From Sulfurihydrogenibium sp. (lineage in GTDB: Bacteria > Aquificota > Aquificia > Aquificales > Hydrogenothermaceae), in NCBI RefSeq assembly GCF_028276765.1, contig NZ_JAPYVU010000009.1, positions 1 to 41,389 of the forward strand: a DNA stretch of 41,389 bases. The letters are read 5' to 3'. A program made the position numbers and the translations under genes. The notes beneath the pieces were generated by a model that saw nothing but the letters and a program-made list of their open reading frames with translations, was not told the origin of the DNA and searched no databases. Positions 1,758-18,056 of the stretch are shown here, piece by piece (position 1 is the first letter of the stretch; every line of letters starts with the position of its first letter).

Positions 1758-1789
1758 ATTTATCTACATTCTTTAAGACGGAGGATTAA

Positions 1790-2113
1790 ATGGCTAAAAC
1801 TACATTATCACCAAAAAAACAGAAGCATAAAAGAAGAGTAAAGAAAAATATTAGAGTTGCCGAAAGAAGAAGGCTCGAAAATAGATATCATATTTCAAGA
1901 ATGAAAACTGCATTCAAAAAACTTTATTCAGTTCTTGAAAAAGAAGGTCCAGAGGCAGCATCTAAATACTTACCATTATGCCAAAAGCTTGCATACAGGG
2001 CTGCAGCTAAAGGGGCTATTCATAAAAATGAAGCTGCAAGAAGAGTTTCAAGAGCAGCTAAAAGAATAAAAGCGGCTTTAGAAAAATTGCAACAACAGCA
2101 ACAAGTTGCATAA
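1790..2113 (+). CDS. rpsT: Small ribosomal subunit protein S20
   Basis: A 107-residue, highly basic protein that binds 16S rRNA in the body of the 30S subunit. It shows the S20 pattern: an N-terminal Lys/Arg cluster (KKQKHKRRVKKNIRVAERRR) followed by long alpha helices with repeated Ala-Ala-Arg/Lys stretches such as AAKGAIHKNEAARR. It is somewhat longer than the usual 85-90 residues because of an N-terminal extension and a glutamine-rich tail (QQQQQ). The start ATG follows GGAGG with good spacing. A clear promoter (TTGCAA, 17 bases, TAAAAT) lies upstream. The tRNA, tilS and ftsH genes follow on the same strand, so some co-transcription is possible. Confidence 0.93.
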   Translation: MAKTTLSPKKQKHKRRVKKNIRVAERRRLENRYHISRMKTAFKKLYSVLEKEGPEAASKYLPLCQKLAYRAAAKGAIHKNEAARRVSRAAKRIKAALEKLQQQQQVA

Positions 2114-2151
2114 TTTTTAATTTTGAAATAAAATATTATTTTGAAGAAAGT

Positions 2152-2225
2152 GGCGGTATAGCTCAGTTGGTTAGAGCACACGGCTCATATCCGTGGGGTC
2201 CGGGGTTCGAATCCCTGTACCGCCA
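2152..2225 (+). tRNA. tRNA with CAT anticodon (elongator Met more likely than Ile2)
   Basis: The acceptor arm GGCGGTA (2152-2158) pairs with TACCGCC (2218-2224), with A2225 as discriminator and no encoded CCA. The D arm contains AGCTCAGTTGGTTAGAGC. The anticodon stem CACGG/CCGTG encloses CTCATAT, with anticodon CAT at 2186-2188. The T arm reads CGGGGTTCGAATCCCTG. The fully paired acceptor end and the lack of the GGG/CCC anticodon-stem signature exclude an initiator tRNA. CAT is also the gene sequence of the minor isoleucine tRNA, whose C34 is converted to lysidine by TilS, and tilS starts 9 bases downstream. The D and T arms resemble elongator Met, so I favour Met but cannot exclude Ile2. Confidence 0.9.
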
Positions 2226-2233
2226 TTATAATC

Positions 2234-3580
2234 ATGCTTGAAAGCAAATTCCTAAAAGCTGTTAGAAAATTTAATCTTATTGAAAATCAAGATAAAATCC
2301 TTATAGCATTCTCAGGTGGCCCTGATTCTTTAGTTTTAACCAACCTACTACTAAAATTCCAAAAAACCTTGAGTATATCAGAAATTCAGCTTGCACATCT
2401 AAATCATGCTCTAAGAAAAGAGTCAGACCAAGACCAAGAATTTTGCGAAAATTTTGCCAGTAACCTTGGTTTAAAGATTCATGTTAAGAAAGTCGATGTT
2501 AAAAAAGTTGCCAAAGAGCAAAAAATTTCTGTAGAAGAAGCAGGAAGGTTAGAGAGATATAAATTTTTCAATGAAATTCTTCAAAAAGAAAATCTAAATA
2601 AAATAGCAACAGGGCATCATCTTTCAGATTTAACAGAGTCTATAGTTCTTTGGTTTATCCAAGGAAATAAACGAGGACTAAAGGGTTTTCGTCCAAAAGA
2701 AAACAATATAATAAGACCATTATATCTAATCACAAAAGAAGAGATTGAAGAATACTGCCAAAAAAACGGATTAGTCTATTTAATAGACCAGTCAAACTTT
2801 TCAAGAAATTATTTAAGAAATCAAGTTCGCTTAGATGTTATACCAATTTTGAAAAAAATCAATCCAGATTTAGAAAATTCAATGTTAAATTTATCTCAGT
2901 TTTCATATTTTGATGAATCCTACTTAGACAAGCTAACGGAGGAGTATTATTCCAATCTTGATAATAAAAATTTATTAGACTTATCTTTTATTAAGATGCT
3001 TCCAAATGCTTTAAAATACAGACTTTTAATTAAATGGATATATGAAAACACCAATACTTACCCATCTTACAAGCAAATCTTAAATCTAATGGAAATTTTA
3101 GACAAACAAGGACAAAAAGAGATAAAAATTTCAAAAGATATTAAAATTGTAAAAACATACGATAAACTCGAAATTTTAACATCTGAAAATATGGAAAATT
3201 TACAAATAGAGTATAAATTAAAAGTTGGTCAGAAAATTTTCTTAAAAGAGTTTTGTATGGAATTAGAAAGCTATATAATCGATGCTAAAGACTTTAAAAA
3301 AGATAAAAATACAGAATGTTTTGATTTGCCGGAAGATAGTATTTTAGAAATTAGAACAAGAAAAGAAGGAGATAGATTTTTACCTTTTGGTAGAAAGACG
3401 GAAAAGAAGTTAAAAGATGTTTTTATTGATTTAAAAATTCCAAAACATATGAGAGATAGCATACCCCTTTTGGTGTATAATAATAAAATACTATGGATAA
3501 TTGGATACAAAAGGTCTGGATATTATCCGGTTTCAGAAAATTCAACGAAAGTTATTTGTTTTAGATATAAGGAGGTATAG
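2234..3580 (+). CDS. tilS: tRNA(Ile)-lysidine synthase
   Basis: This enzyme attaches lysine to C34 of the minor isoleucine tRNA (CAT), changing its codon reading from AUG to AUA. The PP-loop ATP pyrophosphatase motif SGGPDS sits at residues 27-32, followed by HLNHALR and the ATGHHLSD segment that replaces the common GHHxDDxxET. The C-terminal domain is present ([15 protein letters not shown], then a [13 protein letters not shown] segment), so this is the long, two-domain type at 448 residues. It begins 9 bases after a CAT-anticodon tRNA gene. Its last codons contain the GGAGG that serves as ribosome binding site for ftsH, so the two are translationally linked. Confidence 0.93.
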
Positions 3581-3582
3581 AA

Positions 3583-5481
3583 TTGCAGCTAACAAGAAGT
3601 TTATTGATATGGTTTTTAATCGGTGCTATGATGATTTTGGCTTTCAATATGTTTGGTTCAAAGCAGCTTGCTGATAACAAGGTTCCCTTCACTGAATTTG
3701 TCAATATGGTAAATGAAAAAAATATTAAAGAAGCCACAATAAGAGGAGAAGAGCTTATAGCTGTTACGGAAGATGGGAAAAAGGTTGAAACTATAGTTCC
3801 ATCCGGCTATTCAAGACTATATGATATTTTATCTGAAAATGGTGTGCAGCTAAAAGTATTACCAAGTGAAAGCAGTAATTGGTTTTTAACTTTATTAGTT
3901 TCTTGGTTGCCAATACTGCTTTTTATTGGTCTTTGGATTTTTATGATGAGACAGATGTCCGGTGGTCCAAATAGAGCATTTTCTTTTGCAAAAAGTAAAG
4001 GAAAGCTGTACTTAGAAGAAAAGCCTAACGTAAAATTAGATGATGTTGCCGGAATGGATGAAGTGAAAGAGGAAGTAAAAGAGCTAATAGAATATCTTAA
4101 AGACCCATCAAGATATCAAAAACTTGGTGGTAGAGCACCAAAAGGAATATTACTCTATGGAGACCCGGGTGTCGGTAAAACTTTATTAGCTAAAGCTATA
4201 GCCGGGGAAGCTAACGTTCCTTTCATTTCTATATCAGGTTCAGATTTTGTCGAGATGTTTGTCGGTGTTGGAGCTGCAAGAGTTAGGGATTTGTTTGAAA
4301 CCGCAAAAAAACATGCTCCCTGTTTAATATTTATAGATGAGATTGACGCAGTAGGTAGAGCCAGAACAGGTGTTGGTTTTGGTGGTGGTCATGATGAAAG
4401 AGAGCAAACATTAAACCAATTACTTGTTGAATTAGATGGATTTGATACTAATGAAGGAATAATAGTGATTGCAGCGACAAACAGACCAGATATTCTTGAC
4501 CCAGCATTACTTAGACCGGGAAGGTTTGACAGACAGATTTCTGTTCCAAAACCAGACGTAAAAGGAAGATACGAGATACTAAAAGTTCACGTAAATAAAA
4601 AGAATGTACCGCTTGATGAAGATGTAGATTTGATGACAATAGCAAAAGGAACACCAGGATTTTCGGGTGCAGACCTTGCAAACCTTATAAATGAAGCAGC
4701 ACTTCTTGCAGCAAGAAGAAATAAAGAAAAAGTAGGCATGCAAGAATTAGAAGATGCATTAGATAGAATCATGATGGGATTAGAAAGAAAAGGAATGGCG
4801 ATAACGGAAAAAGAAAAAGAAAAAATTGCGTACCATGAAGTTGGTCATGCAATAGTTGGAGTAATGTTAGAGGAAGCTGACCCATTGCATAAAGTTTCTA
4901 TAATTCCAAGAGGTGCTGCTCTTGGTGTAACTGTTAACCTTCCTGAAGAAGATAAGCATCTTTATTCTAAAAAAGAGCTGATGGCCAGAATCTTACAGCT
5001 TTTCGGGGGAAGAGCGGCAGAAGAAGTATTTTATGGAAAAGATGGAATTACAACAGGAGCTGAAAATGACCTAATGAGAGCAACAGAATTGGCTTATAGA
5101 ATTGTTGCAGCTTGGGGAATGAGCGATGAAATAGGACCTATACACATCTCTACAAACAGAAGTGGCGGATTTTTCTTTGGAAACCAAGGACCAGAAATTA
5201 GTGAAGAAACTGCAAGAAAGATAGATGAGGAGGTTAACAAAATATTAAGAGAATCTTATCAAAAAGCTAAAAACATAATAGAAAGCTATAAAGATGCAGT
5301 TGTAGCAGTAGTTCAGCTTTTACTTGATAAGGAAACGATAACTTGCGAAGAAATGTTTGCGATTTTAAAAGAATATGGCGTTCCAGTATTAAATAGATGT
5401 AGAAAGTTTGAAAGCGTAGTCACAATAACAGATTCTTCAAGTCCAGAAACTCCTCCCGCAGAACTTCCGGCACCAGCATAA
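3583..5481 (+). CDS. ftsH: ATP-dependent zinc metalloprotease FtsH
   Basis: A 632-residue membrane-anchored AAA+ protease that degrades misfolded membrane proteins and short-lived regulators. There are two N-terminal membrane segments (about 5-24 and 103-124) around a small periplasmic domain. These are followed by Walker A GDPGVGKT (193-200), Walker B FIDEID (250-255), the zinc motif HEVGH (418-422) and the third zinc ligand Asp496 in [10 protein letters not shown]. All key residues are intact. The start is TTG at 3583, supported by GGAGG located in the end of tilS. The C-terminus ends in a Pro/Ala-rich tail ([12 protein letters not shown]). The tilS-ftsH order is common in bacteria. tatD follows 4 bases after the stop. 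Confidence 0.97.
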
Positions 5482-8925: not shown

Positions 8926-9059
8926 TTTTATTTTACTTTTAATTTTAATTTTTTACAGATAACTTGTAAAATTTTAAATCTAATATGACAAAAATCAGCT
9001 TTATTATGAAGAGCATTTCTTGGAAAATATTTAGCGTAATAAATCTTGGGAGGTGCGTT

Positions 9060-9491
9060 ATGAAAAAGTTTTTAGCAGCAGTTGGAACAGCAGCATTTTT
9101 AACAGTTGGCTTGGCTAATGCTGAGCAAACTCTGTACGAAAAGCTTGGCGGTAAAAAGGCAATCGATGCAGTGGTTGAAGACCTTACAAACAGAATGATG
9201 CATGACAAACAGCTCAAAAGATTCTGTGGCAACGTGTCAAAAGATAAGGTCAAAACAAACAGAGAGCTTGTAGCTGCGTTTATTTGTAAAGCAACAGGTG
9301 GTCCTTGCGAGTACAAGGGTAAGGATATGAAAGAAGCACATCAAAATCTTGGAATTACAGAAAAAGATTGGGACAGGTTTGTAGAACTTGCAAAGCAAAG
9401 TCTAAACAAGTTTAAAGTACCTGCTGACGTTCAAAAAGAGTTTTTAGGTGCTGTTGCCGGATTAAAAGACCAAGTGGTAAGCAAAAAGTAA
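9060..9491 (+). CDS. Exported group I truncated haemoglobin
   Basis: The true start is the ATG at 9060 behind GGGAGGTG, not the longer in-frame extension upstream. The 143-residue product begins with a signal peptide, MKKFLAAVGTAAFLTVGLANA, with cleavage likely before Glu22. The rest is a 2-on-2 globin: TLYEKLGGKKAIDAVVEDL, the GGP-C-EYKGKDM turn, and AHQNLGI with proximal haem ligand His94. Periplasmic location is inferred from the signal peptide; most truncated globins are cytoplasmic. Functions in the family include NO or O2 binding and detoxification. The next gene, a flavin-reductase-like protein, starts on the base after the stop, so the two are co-transcribed, although only the globin has an export signal. 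Confidence 0.9.
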   Translation: MKKFLAAVGTAAFLTVGLANAEQTLYEKLGGKKAIDAVVEDLTNRMMHDKQLKRFCGNVSKDKVKTNRELVAAFICKATGGPCEYKGKDMKEAHQNLGITEKDWDRFVELAKQSLNKFKVPADVQKEFLGAVAGLKDQVVSKK

Positions 9492-10004
9492 ATGTTTAAA
9501 ATAATAGAAGATGGCTACACCCTTGGATACGTTCCACGACCGCTCGTTATAGTGGTCGTGGAAGAAAATCCTTTTACCGTTGGTTGGCATACACCTGTAA
9601 ATAAAAACCCTTTTCTATACTCTATATCCATAGACAAAACAAATTACAGCTATAAGCTTTTGAAAGATAATTTTACGATAAACTTTCTAACATCTGAATA
9701 CTTTGAAGAAATTCTGATTGCGGGGTCATATCACGGAGACCAGGTTGATAAACTGAGACTACTTAAAAACATCCATCTAACAAATAGTGAAAAAGTGTCT
9801 TCCAAAAGTATTTTAGAGTCTTTCATGGTCTATGAGTGTGAAGTTTACCAAAAATTAGAGTTTCAAGACCATTGTCTTGTGATTGGCGGGGTTTTAGTAA
9901 TAAAGTACAAACAAGGAAAGGTAAAACCAAAAAACAAACTTGCTTTAACAATGGGAAAAAATTACTACTGCTTTAACACTAAGGGATTTTATAAAAAAAT
10001 CTGA
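9492..10004 (+). CDS. Flavin-reductase-like FMN-binding protein
   Basis: A 170-residue protein with the split-barrel flavin-reductase pattern: PRPLVIVVVEE near the start, then NPFLYSISIDKTNYSYKLL, a DNFTINFLTS strand, GSYHGDQVDKLRL (flavin-phosphate region) and CLVIGGVLVIKY. It directly abuts the globin gene (TAA then ATG) with no gap. It has no signal peptide, so it should be cytoplasmic. Its last 26 bases overlap the 3' end of the convergent histidine kinase gene. A reductase role towards haem or flavin partners is plausible from context but not shown. It is diverged from the protein at 6507-6986. Confidence 0.72.
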   Translation: MFKIIEDGYTLGYVPRPLVIVVVEENPFTVGWHTPVNKNPFLYSISIDKTNYSYKLLKDNFTINFLTSEYFEEILIAGSYHGDQVDKLRLLKNIHLTNSEKVSSKSILESFMVYECEVYQKLEFQDHCLVIGGVLVIKYKQGKVKPKNKLALTMGKNYYCFNTKGFYKKI

Positions 10005-10971
10005 AAGTAGAAAACTTTCCATCATAAAAGTATTCTAACTCTCCATTGAAAAATATCTTTAGCCTTTCCCTTAGATTTTTAAGACCTGTTCCCTCTGTTA
10101 TTTCCTCAAAACCTTTTCCGCTATCTTTAACTTCCACATAAAGATACCCGTTTTTTATGTATGAAGATATGATTACTTTTCCGCTGTTTTTTAGTCCGTG
10201 TTTTATAGCATTTTCTACAAGAAGCTGTATTGACATTTTTGGAACGGGTAAAGATAAGGTGTTTTTGTTTATGTAAAATTCAAACTCTATGGCAGGAAAT
10301 CTTAGTTTTTCAATAAAGATAAAGTTTTTTACTATTTTAAGCTCATCTTGTAAGGTTATAATGCTGTTTTCGTCTATGATCATTCTTAAAAATTGTGATA
10401 GTTTTAACATTCCTTTCTCTGCAAGCTTTTGGTCTATATAAACCAGCTCTGAAAGTGTGTTTAGAGCGTTGAATAAAAAATGTGGGTTTATCTGATACTC
10501 TAAGGCTTTTAACTTTAACTCTATGTTCAGCCTGTTTAACTCTTCTTCTATCTTTTTAGAGTTGACAATCATGTAAAGAAGATAACCTATTAACATTGTT
10601 AAAAGTCCTGTCATAATACTAAGATAAAACAGAAATTTGTTAGAAAATTCTAAGTCTATAAGTTTTAGGGCTTTTATAAACTCAAAAGCTGTTAGACTTC
10701 CAATAAAGCCGGCAAAGAAAGACATTAAAAGACTTATAAAAGTATAGTATTTATCGCTTAGTAATGGCAGTATCTTTTTGTTGCTAAAATTAATCATTGC
10801 AAAAGAGAATACAAATATAAAAAATCCAAAGATAGAGCCGGAAATCATTCCTTTAATGATAGGAATATTTAGAATTAAAGATATAAAACCGCCCAAGATA
10901 GAGCCAAAAATCAATCCAAAGATAAAAACTATAGTCCAGTCTTTTTTGTTTATCTCAATGTAGTATTTCAT
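9979..10971 (-). CDS. LytS-type membrane sensor histidine kinase
   Basis: A 330-residue kinase with four or five hydrophobic segments in the first 137 residues. It then has the LytS/YehU-type phosphoacceptor region LEYQINPHFLFNALNTLSELV (His164) and a C-terminal ATPase domain with VENAIKHGLKNSGKV (N box) and VKDSGKGFEEITEGTGLKNLRERL (G box). No separate sensor domain is visible, so sensing probably occurs in or at the membrane. Kinases of this type pair with LytTR response regulators. The only one here is at 17306-18043, 6 kb away across the bd-like operon. The start overlaps the upstream oxidoreductase gene by 17 bases, so it belongs to that operon. The 3' end overlaps the convergent gene at 9492-10004. 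Confidence 0.88.
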   Translation of the reverse strand: MKYYIEINKKDWTIVFIFGLIFGSILGGFISLILNIPIIKGMISGSIFGFFIFVFSFAMINFSNKKILPLLSDKYYTFISLLMSFFAGFIGSLTAFEFIKALKLIDLEFSNKFLFYLSIMTGLLTMLIGYLLYMIVNSKKIEEELNRLNIELKLKALEYQINPHFLFNALNTLSELVYIDQKLAEKGMLKLSQFLRMIIDENSIITLQDELKIVKNFIFIEKLRFPAIEFEFYINKNTLSLPVPKMSIQLLVENAIKHGLKNSGKVIISSYIKNGYLYVEVKDSGKGFEEITEGTGLKNLRERLKIFFNGELEYFYDGKFSTFRFFYKIP

Positions 10972-12421
10972 CTATATCCTCTATTTGAAGGAGTAAGTTA
11001 AGCACACCAATTATAACACCCGGCCAGCCCTGACCGGGAAAAACAGAGTCTCCAACTAAATAAACTCCTTTTATGGGCGTGAAGTTGAAAGGATACTTAA
11101 AGGGAATGTAGTCTTTTATAAGCGGTATTCCGCCAACTGTTCCGTTGTATCTTCCTGTGTATCGCTGAAAAGTCTTTGGGCTTCCTACCATGACGTTTTT
11201 TATCTTACAATCTTTAAATTTTGGCACGTATTCAAAAAGCCTGTTTAAAATAAAATCTTTTGCTTTCTCTTTTTTCTCAATATACTCTTGTTTGCTTAAA
11301 TCTTGCCAAAATGATATTTTACAGTGGGTTGATATGATGACAGATTTTTCTCCGTCTTTTGTAAGGACTTCATCTTCTTTGTCTGAGATTGAGACAAAAA
11401 ACGAGTTGCTGCCGGTATAAGGGTTTATGTCTTTATGGATTATTTGGTAGTGATACTCATCAACTATGTTATTTTTATCTTCCAAATTAAAGTATATCGT
11501 CAAGCTTGACCAGATTTTTGAATACTTTTTTCTGTTTTTGATGCAAGCATCTTTAAAATCTTCAAGTAAATCACAGTAATCCCATATAGTTTTGTTTAAA
11601 ATCACATTCTTAGCCTCAAAGACTTCTTTATCTGTTATCACTTGGAAAAAATCTTTTACTTTTTTTATTTTTATCACTTTGTGTTTCAAAAAAACATTTT
11701 TGTAATCACCGGCTAAGCAGTCAAAAACCTTTCCCATTCCACCATAAACATAGTAGTTGTCAAGGTTTGGATAAGTCAAACCCATAGACCCAACGGATAT
11801 AGGAACGTCTCTGCTATATCCTTGAGATGTCATCAGAATTTGATTGTCTAAAAAGTCTTTAAAGTCCTCGTCAAAATCTCCAAGATTGTCTTTAAAAAAA
11901 TCGTAAGAAGTCTTAAATTGATAGGACAAGGTTTTTAGTAAGTATCTGTAATTCTCGGCAAACTTTTTAAAAAGCAGTTTTGGATTTTTATAATTTATGG
12001 GTATCACATTGTAAATATTCTGCCAGTTAGCATCAGAGATAGAGTAAACCTTTTGCCAAACAGACCTTAGGTTTTTGAAATTAAAATTATTCTCAAGCTC
12101 TAAGACTGCCTTTTCTCTGTCTGAATATCTTTTTATAGCTTTATCTCCAACGAATACAACCATCGGAACTTCAAGCTTTTTTACCTTTGGTTTTGGAAGG
12201 TTTAAGAATTTAAAAACTTTCCCAAGGGGCATATGGTCTTGTAGTCCAACCAATGTAGAAGCTCCAACGTTGTACAGATATTCCTTTCTTTTGAATGTTC
12301 CGCTACAACCTCCTAAGTATGACTCTTTTTCAAGCAGTGCCACCTTTTTACCTATCTTTTTTAAGATCGCATAAGAAACCGTCCCGCCAATTCCACCACC
12401 AACTACTACATAATCAAACAT
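10955..12421 (-). CDS. CrtI-like FAD-dependent oxidoreductase
   Basis: A 488-residue flavoprotein of the phytoene desaturase / carotenoid isomerase / retinol saturase group. The N-terminal dinucleotide-binding motif is VVGGGIGGTVSYAIL, followed by LLEKESYLGGCSGTF. The C-terminal FAD motif is GVYLVGDSVFPGQGWPGVIIG. The middle, substrate-defining region is not diagnostic by eye. Carotenoid or related isoprenoid oxidation is likely but not certain. No crtB-like phytoene synthase is nearby. The gene starts behind AAGGAGAG, lies 9 bases after a small unknown gene, and overlaps the downstream kinase gene by 17 bases. This gives an odd operon of unknown, isoprenoid-type oxidoreductase and membrane kinase. 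Confidence 0.8.
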   Translation of the reverse strand: MFDYVVVGGGIGGTVSYAILKKIGKKVALLEKESYLGGCSGTFKRKEYLYNVGASTLVGLQDHMPLGKVFKFLNLPKPKVKKLEVPMVVFVGDKAIKRYSDREKAVLELENNFNFKNLRSVWQKVYSISDANWQNIYNVIPINYKNPKLLFKKFAENYRYLLKTLSYQFKTSYDFFKDNLGDFDEDFKDFLDNQILMTSQGYSRDVPISVGSMGLTYPNLDNYYVYGGMGKVFDCLAGDYKNVFLKHKVIKIKKVKDFFQVITDKEVFEAKNVILNKTIWDYCDLLEDFKDACIKNRKKYSKIWSSLTIYFNLEDKNNIVDEYHYQIIHKDINPYTGSNSFFVSISDKEDEVLTKDGEKSVIISTHCKISFWQDLSKQEYIEKKEKAKDFILNRLFEYVPKFKDCKIKNVMVGSPKTFQRYTGRYNGTVGGIPLIKDYIPFKYPFNFTPIKGVYLVGDSVFPGQGWPGVIIGVLNLLLQIEDIDEILH

Positions 12422-12903: not shown

Positions 12904-13107
12904 CTACCAGCTGGTAGCTAAAAGCAAAACGTTGTATCCTACGTGAAATAACTCCCAAAATATGTATACAATCAATAGCCATTTAAAAAACTTTCTTTCT
13001 ATCCCTTTTGCATCTTTATATATCAAATACAGAAATACAGCTATTAAAAACTGTAAAAATAAAGAAAAAGAGAGGGTCAAAAGACCCTCAAAGCTTAGAT
13101 TTTTCAT
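12904..13107 (-). CDS. Small membrane protein, third gene of the bd-like operon
   Basis: A 67-residue protein with two predicted membrane helices, about residues 8-30 (LLTLSFSLFLQFLIAVFLYLI) and 42-63 (FKWLLIVYIFWELFHVGYNVLL). The loop between them is basic (KDAKGIERK). I recognise no family. Its ATG overlaps the TGA of the preceding bd-like/cytochrome c gene (ATGA), which argues for coupled translation and a role as a small subunit, as CydX is for true cytochrome bd. The similarity to CydX is positional only. A hairpin with a U-rich tail sits inside codons 7-16, so transcripts may often end before the gene is complete. That hairpin could instead mean the reading frame is spurious. Confidence 0.6.
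   Translation of the reverse strand: MKNLSFEGLLTLSFSLFLQFLIAVFLYLIYKDAKGIERKFFKWLLIVYIFWELFHVGYNVLLLATSW
13061..13089 (-). terminator. Terminator-like hairpin inside the 67-residue gene
   Basis: On the minus strand GAGGGTC (13089-13083), TTTT, GACCCTC (13078-13072) is followed by TCTTTTTCTTTA. It is a perfect 7-bp GC-rich stem with a U-rich tail, only 15 bases after the stop of the cytochrome-c-tailed gene and within the next reading frame. Confidence 0.65.
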
Positions 13108-14468
13108 TTAAGCTCTGTTATCCATTTTGCGATCTTTTCTGCCTCATCTTTTGGTACGTTTGTCATAGGTGGCATTGGAGTATAACCAGGCCAGTTTGAA
13201 GGTTCAGGTTGATAGATTAGTTTTACTATTCTGTCCGGAGTATATCCTTTTTTAGCAACATCTTTAAAAGCAGGTCCAACTATTTTGGTATCAACTGCAT
13301 GGCATGCTGTACAGCCATTTTTTGCAATCAATTTTTCTCCTTCTGATAGGTTAGCCGCCTCTGCAACAGAAATTCCAACCGGCTTAGTTTTTGCTTCTTT
13401 GTAATCTTTCTCTACTGCTGCTAAGTACTCCTGAGTTTGTTTTTGCATTTGTGCTATTGCCGGTTCAAGTAGTGATATTCTCATTCCGTGTCTTGTTATT
13501 CCCATTGATATAAGCGTTACTAACAACAATCCAGCAGCCAAATAAGCATGCTTTGGAGAGATATTATCGTTGAAAAACTCTTTAAGCAAGATAGCAATCG
13601 CACCAAGAATAGATATCACGGCTATAATTATAAATACTTCAAATCCTTTTGAATAGAAGTTTTCAATACCGTAGTTAGGAAATTGGAAGAATGTCAACGT
13701 TCCAACAAAAAGGTTTAAAACAGTTGGAACTAAAAACCATGCTTTTCCTTGTCTGATGAGGATGTTTGCCGCCTCTAAATCTTGACCTTTACTTTTTTTA
13801 TAAACTCCGTACAAGAGCATAAACATGCCGTTTACTGCAAACGCTCCAAGGTAAAAGTGAGCCAATCTAAACAGTACATCAGGTCTTGAAACAACATCCC
13901 AAAAGTGAGTGTTTGGCGTCCAGGTTGATGGTGTTATGTAAAGTTGTACTGTAGACATAAACACAGGAGGCAGTGATAAAAACAGTATAGCAGCTATAGC
14001 ACCTATGGTGATATGCAGTGCTTTATGGTTTTCAAGTTTATGCCAACTAAATTTATACAGATATGAAATTAAAAAGGCTACTACGTTTCCCCAAATTATA
14101 TGGAGCCATTGAGGTGAGTTCATAACAGAAGCCGAATAAAAGAAAGCTGTGTACATAACGCTTACAATCAAAAGAGGAGCAACTCCCCATAACGCCCCCA
14201 TATTTTCGCTAATGGTTACAGGTGTAGTTAGTAAGTATGCTACTTTGTCATAATTTTTGTCATTTTTTAAATGACCTATCCAGTTGTTAATCACAGATAA
14301 AACAGAAGAGCCAAGTAAAACGTTGATGAAAATTATGTGAACTAAGAATGAAACAACCAGAAGAATATGAAAAACAGGAACTATTATAGCATCCATTCCA
14401 CCTGTTGGAAGGGGTAAAGGTATATCATGGGGAAGGTAAGGGAAAATTGGGTTATTTGGATTATTCAT
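13104..14468 (-). CDS. bd-oxidase-like membrane protein with C-terminal cytochrome c domain (second subunit)
   Basis: The start is best placed at the ATG at 14468, behind GGAGGTGG; the GTG three codons earlier is part of that ribosome site. The 454-residue product has about nine membrane helices resembling the CydA fold, with early histidines in FHILLVVSFLVHIIF, followed by a linker and a monohaem cytochrome c domain. The haem motif is CTACH (Cys386, Cys389, His390) and the likely Met ligand lies in PMPPM. A ring of Asn/Pro-rich residues (MNNPNNPIFPYLP) precedes the first helix. The cytochrome domain should face the periplasm. It pairs with the similarly built protein encoded 17 bases upstream. 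A role passing electrons between cytochrome c or quinol and an acceptor is inferred; oxygen reduction is not shown. Confidence 0.82.
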   Translation of the reverse strand: MNNPNNPIFPYLPHDIPLPLPTGGMDAIIVPVFHILLVVSFLVHIIFINVLLGSSVLSVINNWIGHLKNDKNYDKVAYLLTTPVTISENMGALWGVAPLLIVSVMYTAFFYSASVMNSPQWLHIIWGNVVAFLISYLYKFSWHKLENHKALHITIGAIAAILFLSLPPVFMSTVQLYITPSTWTPNTHFWDVVSRPDVLFRLAHFYLGAFAVNGMFMLLYGVYKKSKGQDLEAANILIRQGKAWFLVPTVLNLFVGTLTFFQFPNYGIENFYSKGFEVFIIIAVISILGAIAILLKEFFNDNISPKHAYLAAGLLLVTLISMGITRHGMRISLLEPAIAQMQKQTQEYLAAVEKDYKEAKTKPVGISVAEAANLSEGEKLIAKNGCTACHAVDTKIVGPAFKDVAKKGYTPDRIVKLIYQPEPSNWPGYTPMPPMTNVPKDEAEKIAKWITELK

Positions 14469-14485
14469 TTTTTCCACCTCCGATT

Positions 14486-15853
14486 TTATTTATTTACTGC
14501 TGTTTGGGTTTGCTTTTGTTCTACTAATGTAGCAAGGTATGCTGCTAATGCTTTTCTTTCTTCATCCGTTCCTACAAATGGTGGCATAAAAGGAGTTGCT
14601 GGAGAGTTTAAAGCTCCTATTCTGTGATAGATAGCATTCTCATCTAAGCCTTTAACTTTCTTGGTTATTGCATTTACTCCATTTACAGAGTGGCAAACTC
14701 TACATTCAAGCTTAAACAAATACTCACCTACTTTAACTTTGTTTTCTTCTGTAATAGTTCTGTACTGTTGGGGAACAAAAGATGCATACTTTAAAACACC
14801 AACGCTATTTAAATGTGCAACGTCAAATTTTCTAATTCCATGGGCGTACATGTATCCATAAATTATATAAGGTTTTCTTACAAATTCTCTAATTCTTTCA
14901 AACTCAGCCACTAAGAACACATAAGAAACCATCATTAAAGATGCTAAGGCAAACGGAACAGCTTTTGGTTTTAGGTAGAAAGCAAAAATTGCAACAAGGA
15001 TTAAAGCAAACGCTCCAAGAAGTGCGATAATTAGCATTTCTTTATGACCGATGTATTTGGTTGTCAATCCTGCAACAAACATTAAGCTTTTTGCTTCTTG
15101 AGGAATTTGTGCATAATACCACAATCCAAAGATAATTGTAATTGGAATGGTTGCAAGCACAATTCTTCCAAACCATCTTTCAGCTTTTTCTCTTAATGTT
15201 AAATCATTTCTTGTAAACCACCAAGTCCAGTACATTGATATTGCAGCAGCAAAGCCAATAGCAAAAAATGTTCTAAACATTAAAGATGGTATCCAGCTTG
15301 GGTTAAAGAGTGATGCTATATAGTCTGGCTGAGCTGGAAAGTCTGATTTAAGCCAGTTTCCTGGTGTTAGCATAAATCCAAGTATCGCAGTGATGATAAC
15401 CATCGTAAGCCAGCTTGCAACTGCGTAAACAATTCCAAACTTCAAGTTTTGAGTTCTTTTTTCCCATCCGTACGTTTTCCATGTTAAAAACCATGCAAGT
15501 AAGAAAATTAACTCAACGTTAAACACTATCCATTCTGTAAACCATTTCCAGAAGAAAACTCTAAGCAGTGAGCCAATAGCCGGTGGGTCTATGATGTTTG
15601 CGTGTATCCATATACCTATTCCTGTCAAAGCACCGATGGCGGTTGCAGCAATAAACAGAACAAACAAGATTTTGTAGGTTAGGTCATAGAGCTTCTGGTC
15701 GTTAGTTTTTATGGCATACCACTGGGTAAGAGCAAGAACGATACTTCCACCAACCGCAGCACCGTGAGAGATAAGAACGTGGAGGATGGCATCAATCGCA
15801 AAGATGAGCCTATGCCCTAAAACGGGCATCTCAAAAATCGGATAGTCAAACAT
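14486..15853 (-). CDS. CydA-like membrane protein with C-terminal cytochrome c domain (first subunit)
   Basis: This 455-residue protein opens like cytochrome bd subunit I. RLIFAIDAILHVLISHG places His25 where E. coli CydA has the b595 ligand His19. FFWKWFTEWIVFNVELIF has two acidic residues (Glu107, Glu114) in the helix where CydA has Glu99 and Glu107. About nine helices are followed by a cytochrome c domain with CRVCH (Cys384, Cys387, His388) and a likely Met423 ligand in PFMPPF. The long quinol-binding loop of classical CydA (the GRQPW region) is not recognisable. The family is the cytochrome-c-tailed branch of the bd superfamily. The start follows AGGAGGTG, and a -35-like TTGACA and a palindrome lie upstream. 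It heads a three-gene operon. Confidence 0.85.
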   Translation of the reverse strand: MFDYPIFEMPVLGHRLIFAIDAILHVLISHGAAVGGSIVLALTQWYAIKTNDQKLYDLTYKILFVLFIAATAIGALTGIGIWIHANIIDPPAIGSLLRVFFWKWFTEWIVFNVELIFLLAWFLTWKTYGWEKRTQNLKFGIVYAVASWLTMVIITAILGFMLTPGNWLKSDFPAQPDYIASLFNPSWIPSLMFRTFFAIGFAAAISMYWTWWFTRNDLTLREKAERWFGRIVLATIPITIIFGLWYYAQIPQEAKSLMFVAGLTTKYIGHKEMLIIALLGAFALILVAIFAFYLKPKAVPFALASLMMVSYVFLVAEFERIREFVRKPYIIYGYMYAHGIRKFDVAHLNSVGVLKYASFVPQQYRTITEENKVKVGEYLFKLECRVCHSVNGVNAITKKVKGLDENAIYHRIGALNSPATPFMPPFVGTDEERKALAAYLATLVEQKQTQTAVNK

Positions 15854-17305: not shown

Positions 17306-18043
17306 TTAAATGTTCAGATAATCCCTTAAATATTTTGCACCATCTCTGCTTGTTTTTAAAGTGTCTGGTATATCTTGGAATGTGATTAAAAATTTACTTT
17401 GTTCTACTGACTTCATCTCTTTAATTTTTGTAAGATTTACTAAGTAGCTTTTATGAACTCTAAAAAAACCTTTGTATTTTAAGATATCTTCAAACTCATA
17501 CAGCTTTCTGTTAGAAATGTACTCTTTATCCTTTGTTCTTATGACTGTCTCAGAAAGTTCGGCCTTTATGTAATAAATATCATCCGGCTTTAATAGAACT
17601 ATCTTGCTAAGATGCTTTACTGGTATGAGTATTTCTGTGTTAGTAGTAATGGTTGCTATCTTTGCAAGGTTAAAGCTTTTGTTTTCTATATTTTTTATTT
17701 TCTCTAATGCTTTTTCTACGTCTTCTTTTGTAAATGGCTTTAATAGATAATCTATTGCATTTGCCTTAAAGGCATCAAGTGCAAAGTCTCCATATGCCGT
17801 TGCAAAGATTATGTAAGGCGGATTATCCATACTCTCAATGACTTCTTTTGCAATCTCTAAGCCTGTGCCGTCTGGAAGCTTAATATCTAAAAATAACACA
17901 TCAATCTCTTTATCTTTCATCTCCGATAGAGCTTTTTCCTTACTGTCAGCAACTCCAACAATATTGATGTTTCCAATCTCTTTTAAAAGTCTAATCAATC
18001 TTTCTCTTGCGATTGGTTCATCTTCTACGATAAAAACATTCAT
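17306..18043 (-). CDS. LytTR-family response regulator
   Basis: The start is taken as the ATG at 18043, behind AAAGGAGG with 7-base spacing; a TTG two codons upstream would overlap that site. The 245-residue protein has a CheY-like receiver with acidic pocket EDE (7-9), phosphoacceptor Asp53 (FLDIKLPDG) and Lys102 (LLKPF). A C-terminal LytTR DNA-binding domain follows (IYYIKAELSETVIRT, then FFRVHKSYLVNLTKI). It fits the LytS-type kinase at 9979-10971 as partner, although the two genes are about 6 kb apart with the bd-like operon between them. It sits between a CopD-like membrane protein (13 bases upstream) and the DUF523 protein. Confidence 0.92.
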   Translation of the reverse strand: MNVFIVEDEPIARERLIRLLKEIGNINIVGVADSKEKALSEMKDKEIDVLFLDIKLPDGTGLEIAKEVIESMDNPPYIIFATAYGDFALDAFKANAIDYLLKPFTKEDVEKALEKIKNIENKSFNLAKIATITTNTEILIPVKHLSKIVLLKPDDIYYIKAELSETVIRTKDKEYISNRKLYEFEDILKYKGFFRVHKSYLVNLTKIKEMKSVEQSKFLITFQDIPDTLKTSRDGAKYLRDYLNI

Positions 18044-18056
18044 GATCAAACCTCCT

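Follow-up and report, generated by a model that had tools for sequence, protein, structure and literature searches.

What kind of enzyme is encoded by two adjacent Sulfurihydrogenibium genes that each join a CydA-like membrane domain to a C-terminal cytochrome c, and does the small ORF overlapping the second gene belong to it? We analysed a stretch of 41,389 nucleotides, here called the window, from the hot-spring bacterium Sulfurihydrogenibium sp. (GCF_028276765.1, contig NZ_JAPYVU010000009.1, positions 1 to 41,389, forward strand). The three ORFs described in a first-pass annotation, with their CRVCH and CTACH motifs and the ATGA overlap, were all recovered on the minus strand, and are referred to as P1, P2 and P3:

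14486..15853 (-), P1: CydA-fold protein with C-terminal monohaem cytochrome c, 455 aa, defined by ORF and ribosome-binding site
14519..14743 (-), P1 cytochrome c domain: residues ∼371-445, PF13442 at 6.7e-7
14690-14704 (-), P1 CRVCH: residues 384-388, axial Met423
13104..14468 (-), P2: second CydA-fold protein, with C-terminal c551-like cytochrome c, 454 aa from the ATG
13107..13346 (-), P2 cytochrome c domain: residues ∼378-457 (457-aa numbering), matching c551-type structures
13299-13313 (-), P2 CTACH: residues 389-393 (457-aa numbering)
12904..13107 (-), P3: 67-aa two-helix ORF with two hydrophobic stretches, ATGA overlap with the P2 stop
13072..13089 (-), terminator-like hairpin and T-run within the first P3 codons
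12855..12873 (-), intrinsic-terminator-like hairpin after P3, -12.6 kcal/mol

In the mechanical ORF list, P2 starts at a GTG at 14477 (457 aa, 13104-14477, minus strand). As the ribosome-binding site GGAGGTGG directly precedes an ATG at 14468 and the GTG sits inside this site, the GTG was ruled out and the start moved to the ATG, which is most likely the true one and gives 454 aa. P2 of the orthologues G005 and G006 likewise begins with MNNP. The hairpin downstream of P3 is likely the end of a P1-P2-P3 transcription unit.

Both proteins resemble CydA. P1 matched the CydA chain of 5DOQ (chain A) at 1.5e-10 in sequence, and P2 matched the same chain at 1e-7. AlphaFold models were built for the two proteins as separate chains with no haem included. 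Foldseek comparison of the P1 model (pLDDT 82, from a 41-sequence alignment) with the PDB returned CydA chain 5doq_A as best match (1.7e-6, TM 0.60), and for the P2 model (pLDDT 90, from a 40-sequence alignment) 8b4o_A was the best (4.3e-5, TM 0.56), with CydA chains listed first and c551 thereafter. All bd-type structures matched here are quinol oxidases. Fold matches to an NrfD/ActC membrane subunit were weaker than those to CydA for either protein, and this assignment was rejected.

Eight transmembrane helices were predicted for P1, and a periplasmic haem c domain occupies the place of the ninth helix of canonical CydA. Loops 1, 3, 5 and 7 of P1 and P2 are on the whole more positively charged, placing the haem c domains of both proteins in the periplasm. 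In a profile alignment to 5DOQ, P1 residues H25, E107 and E114 fall on the positions of the CydA His and two Glu, and all three are invariant in 73/73 aligned sequences, as are E319, R322, E323, R326, K327 and P328. The stretch E323-x-x-R326-K-P forms an E-x-x-R-x-P motif that corresponds to the E of AEVGRQPW in CydA, an assignment based on the fold match and on the second, low-scoring segment of the 5DOQ profile alignment. The corresponding active-site haem ligands and proton-handling acids are, in E. coli CydA numbering, His19, Glu99, Glu107 and Glu445/Arg448. A relative on a Thermus plasmid (L171) carries Asp at the E114 position. H30, kept in 72 of 73 sequences and not a canonical ligand, may be a candidate for a new haem contact. 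C384, C387, H388 and M423 of the cytochrome c domain are invariant among the 73 sequences. The connection between TM6 and TM7 measures only ∼25 residues, and thus the Q-loop is absent. At the position of the haem b558 ligand His186, none of 41 P1 sequences had a His, and the Met ligand was not located.

P2 also has eight predicted transmembrane helices. Its Pfam matches were PF01654 (2.3e-4) and PF00034 (1.9e-5), and its cytochrome c domain matched c551-type structures at 8.7e-14 and weaker. Residues H47, P101, P183, R204 and R329 are invariant in 73/73 sequences, yet of the active-site set only the His (H47) is kept and the acids are absent. Because P2 retains a His without the active-site acids, P1 is likely the catalytic subunit, and we propose P2 to be a non-catalytic, haem-c-bearing pseudo-CydA partner. 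An assignment of P2 as CydB was ruled out, as CydA chains outrank CydB chains among its fold matches. The profiles of P1 and P2 match one another, partly via the common cytochrome c domain. Overall, these results bear out what had been read from the letters of the window: that both proteins belong to the bd superfamily (CydA chains being the best PDB matches of both models), that each carries a haem c domain (the CxxCH domains score as PF13442 in P1 and PF00034 in P2), that P1 has His25 and two acidic residues at CydA-like positions, and that no quinol loop is recognisable.

The P1-P2 pair is real and well conserved. A scan of named genomes yielded 80 loci, of which 78 extend far enough to judge pairing, and in 78/78 P1 lies directly next to P2 with the gene order unchanged, which is strong evidence for a P1-P2 complex. 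The family is widespread, with members in Campylobacterota, Aquificota, Pseudomonadota and Thermus. CxxCH is present in P1 of every related locus and in P2 of 27 of 78 loci (28 counting the frameshifted L086), where, a few outliers aside, it is confined to one main clade (Hydrogenothermaceae, Pseudomonadota, Sulfuricurvum/Arcobacter); P2 of the Aquificaceae lacks haem c. In a P1 tree, taken within the family only, the window falls in a fully supported clade of 22 two-haem-c members; besides the window, these are a second member of Hydrogenothermaceae, 12 Pseudomonadota and 8 Campylobacterota. Window P1 is ∼60% identical to its Pseudomonadota relatives but only ∼30–34% identical to P1 of Aquificaceae, which belong to its own phylum. 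As the window-type operon, present in 5 genomes of the phylum set, occupies at least three different neighbourhoods, horizontal transfer is likely.

The first-pass annotation had defined the complex by its small third subunit, and this part did not hold. P3 is confined to four Sulfurihydrogenibium operons; no other of the 61 relatives has it. The closest orthologous operon outside the genus, G019, lacks P3 although its P1 and P2 are 85% and 82% identical, and P3 was not seen in the wider locus set, scanned within set distances from the operon. The annotation had itself named absence of the small gene from related operons as evidence against its view, and this is what was observed for the third subunit. 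A third subunit as a trait of the family was hence ruled out, P3 being genus-specific. Could P3 nonetheless be an obligate subunit in this genus, replacing the missing ninth helix in the manner of CydX or CydS, small proteins that stabilise canonical bd (PMC8951039)? Between the window and G006, P3 is 40% identical, with the same length, two helices, 4-nt overlap and FHxGYN motif, and its dN/dS is 0.37; moreover, small membrane ORFs lie at the operon in other lineages (Azonexus, Magnetococcales/Rhodospirillaceae, an Agrobacterium plasmid). However, the codon-position signal of P3 is weak (p ∼0.05), the terminator-like fold at its start is found in both the window and G006, and in G004, one of the four copies, the start ATG has become AAG. 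With P3 absent from G019 and not seen at most other loci, we regard an obligate three-subunit complex as doubtful. No convincing similarity was detected between P3 and the small ORFs of Azonexus, Agrobacterium or Magnetococcales. P3 resembles CydX, CydS and CydH in being a small membrane protein that accompanies a bd-type oxidase, but it differs in that it has two helices, is restricted to one genus and shows no detectable homology with the remaining small ORFs in the comparison. P3 is not a conserved subunit; it appears to be a genus-specific accessory of uncertain status.

Having set P3 aside, we compared the P1-P2 pair with known systems. The OR-C family was reportedly described by phylogenomics by Murali, Gennis and Hemp in 2021 (ISME J). 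In general, members of OR-C have a CydA homologue in which the quinol site is missing and the C-terminus bears haem c, and its partner is another paralogue of the superfamily. P1 shares with them the CydA homology, the missing quinol site, the C-terminal haem c and the superfamily paralogue as partner, and the OR-C-type resemblance noted from the window's letters is upheld. P1-P2 fits OR-C by the features tested, and the lack of a Q-loop and of the b558 His excludes a quinol oxidase. PMC13189123 names OR-C as one of three families, and papers citing the 2021 study divide the cytochrome bd superfamily into qOR, OR-C and OR-N. Among the papers searched, none reports an assay or isolation of an OR-C enzyme. 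The OR-N type, represented by CydAA' of Nitrospira and Nitrospina, is likewise bd-like without a quinol site, with cytochrome c as proposed donor and two CydA paralogues that have been proposed to assemble into a single complex (PMC10839748, PMC12342949, PMC3578206), and in all these respects resembles P1-P2. In contrast to the eight helices plus haem c of both P1 and P2, the Nitrospina bd-like protein has 14 predicted transmembrane helices, additional ones standing in for the Q-loop (PMC3578206). Canonical CydAB (5DOQ, 6RKO, L001) shares with P1 the CydA fold, the catalytic His, the acids and the E-x-x-R-x-P motif, but P1 has neither Q-loop nor b558 His and carries a haem c tail instead of TM9, and its partner is CydA-like, not CydB. 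The idea of an OR-C family is already known; subject to the content of the 2021 paper, our analysis contributes a clade with two haem c domains, a link to bc1 and small ORFs that vary between lineages.

Genomic context offers clues to the donor. In an epsilonproteobacterial genome (L124), genes for a Rieske protein, cytochrome b and a dihaem cytochrome c1-like protein (1787-4422) lie directly upstream of P1-P2, and a free monohaem cytochrome c is encoded just downstream of P2 in Thiomicrorhabdus, Hydrogenovibrio, Halothiobacillaceae and a Methylosinus plasmid. This context points to cytochrome c as the electron donor. O2 would be the acceptor, because the active-site residues of P1 are conserved. 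The window genome encodes a bc1-type cytochrome b, a cbb3-type oxidase and, elsewhere, canonical CydAB (L001); with these two oxidases present, O2 respiration as such does not depend on P1-P2. In our assessment, P1-P2 is probably a member of the bd superfamily that resembles OR-C and reduces O2 with electrons from cytochrome c and not from quinol.

Further genes were noted around the operon. Two-component regulators adjoin it in several lineages, and in the window a LytS-like histidine kinase (9979-10971) and a LytTR response regulator (17306-18049), both on the minus strand like the oxidase genes, flank the oxidase region. A carotenoid desaturase/isomerase-like flavoprotein is encoded at 10955-12421 (-) (CrtD at 1.8e-61, below the curated cut-off), and a periplasmic-looking bacterial (truncated) globin at 8985-9491 (+) (PF01152, 7.7e-16), 3.4 kb from P3. 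On a plasmid of Methylosinus sp. C49 (L173), P1-P2 together with cytochrome c and two-component genes adjoin methanobactin genes, a neighbourhood that may hint at use under copper limitation.

Some of these surroundings would also suit a cytochrome-c-dependent nitric oxide reductase, or an enzyme of NO/O2 stress, on the bd fold. nosL lies ∼2 kb downstream in the Azonexus locus, and globin genes directly follow the operon in Methylotenera (by Pfam) and Zoogloea (by sequence resemblance), besides the globin near P3 in the window. The window genome has a single haem-copper oxidase-type subunit I, which is cbb3-like, and no haem-copper NO reductase was found in it; furthermore, RegBA-like regulators are generally known to control denitrification as well. 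Nevertheless, P1 retains every catalytic residue of the bd enzymes that reduce O2, most loci have no denitrification genes nearby, and the bc1/cytochrome c context suits an oxidase equally, making such a role unlikely. The specific form of this idea, that P1-P2 reduces NO, or NO and O2, with cytochrome c as a copper-free, bd-fold NO reductase unrelated to the haem-copper ones, seems to us decidedly improbable. A quinone-linked enzyme running in reverse, from cytochrome c to quinone, has a precedent as a hypothesis for Nitrospina bd-like proteins (PMC3578206) and could draw on a pentahaem c7-type cytochrome after the operon in two KSB1-type loci, one of them also with an ActB-like molybdoprotein, which resemble components of alternative complex III, but the missing quinol loop and the intact O2-site residues of P1, superfluous for such an enzyme, render it very improbable.

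Returning to the cytochrome-c-fed O2 reductase, the observed pairing, fold, residues, charge-based topology and context led us to a model for haem content, substrate, donor and direction of electron flow. In this model, P1 and P2 would pair up as a heterodimer in the membrane and reduce oxygen with electrons supplied by cytochrome c in the periplasm. P1 would hold the two-haem O2-reducing site, its periplasmic haem c domain replacing the ninth helix and the quinol/b558 input, and P2, the CydA-like partner without catalytic acids, would fill the place of CydB or, as in CydAA', of A'. The second, c551-like haem c, on P2 in the clade of the window, probably serves as the docking site for the soluble donor or passes electrons on to P1. 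Electrons would pass from bc1 or a soluble dehydrogenase to cytochrome c, then to the haem c of P2 and/or P1, and from haem c via the active-site haems of P1 to O2, with protons drawn from the cytoplasmic side. P3 would be an accessory of this genus, if it is made at all.

Relatives of P1-P2 may be hidden by their annotation. Apart from their cytochrome c domains, the scanned P1 and P2 proteins gave no hit above cut-off to a dedicated Pfam or NCBIfam family, and the plasmid records examined here label the genes only 'cytochrome c', 'c-type cytochrome' or 'hypothetical protein'; the relatives on Thermus thermophilus plasmids (L171, L174), for example, appear merely as cytochrome c and hypothetical protein. 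Oxidase surveys relying on such annotation may miss the P1-P2 family. If the proposed function is true, these bacteria could respire downstream of bc1 without copper and with another energy yield, and the enzyme, fed by cytochrome c, would offer a test of whether a bd site can function in the absence of haem b558.
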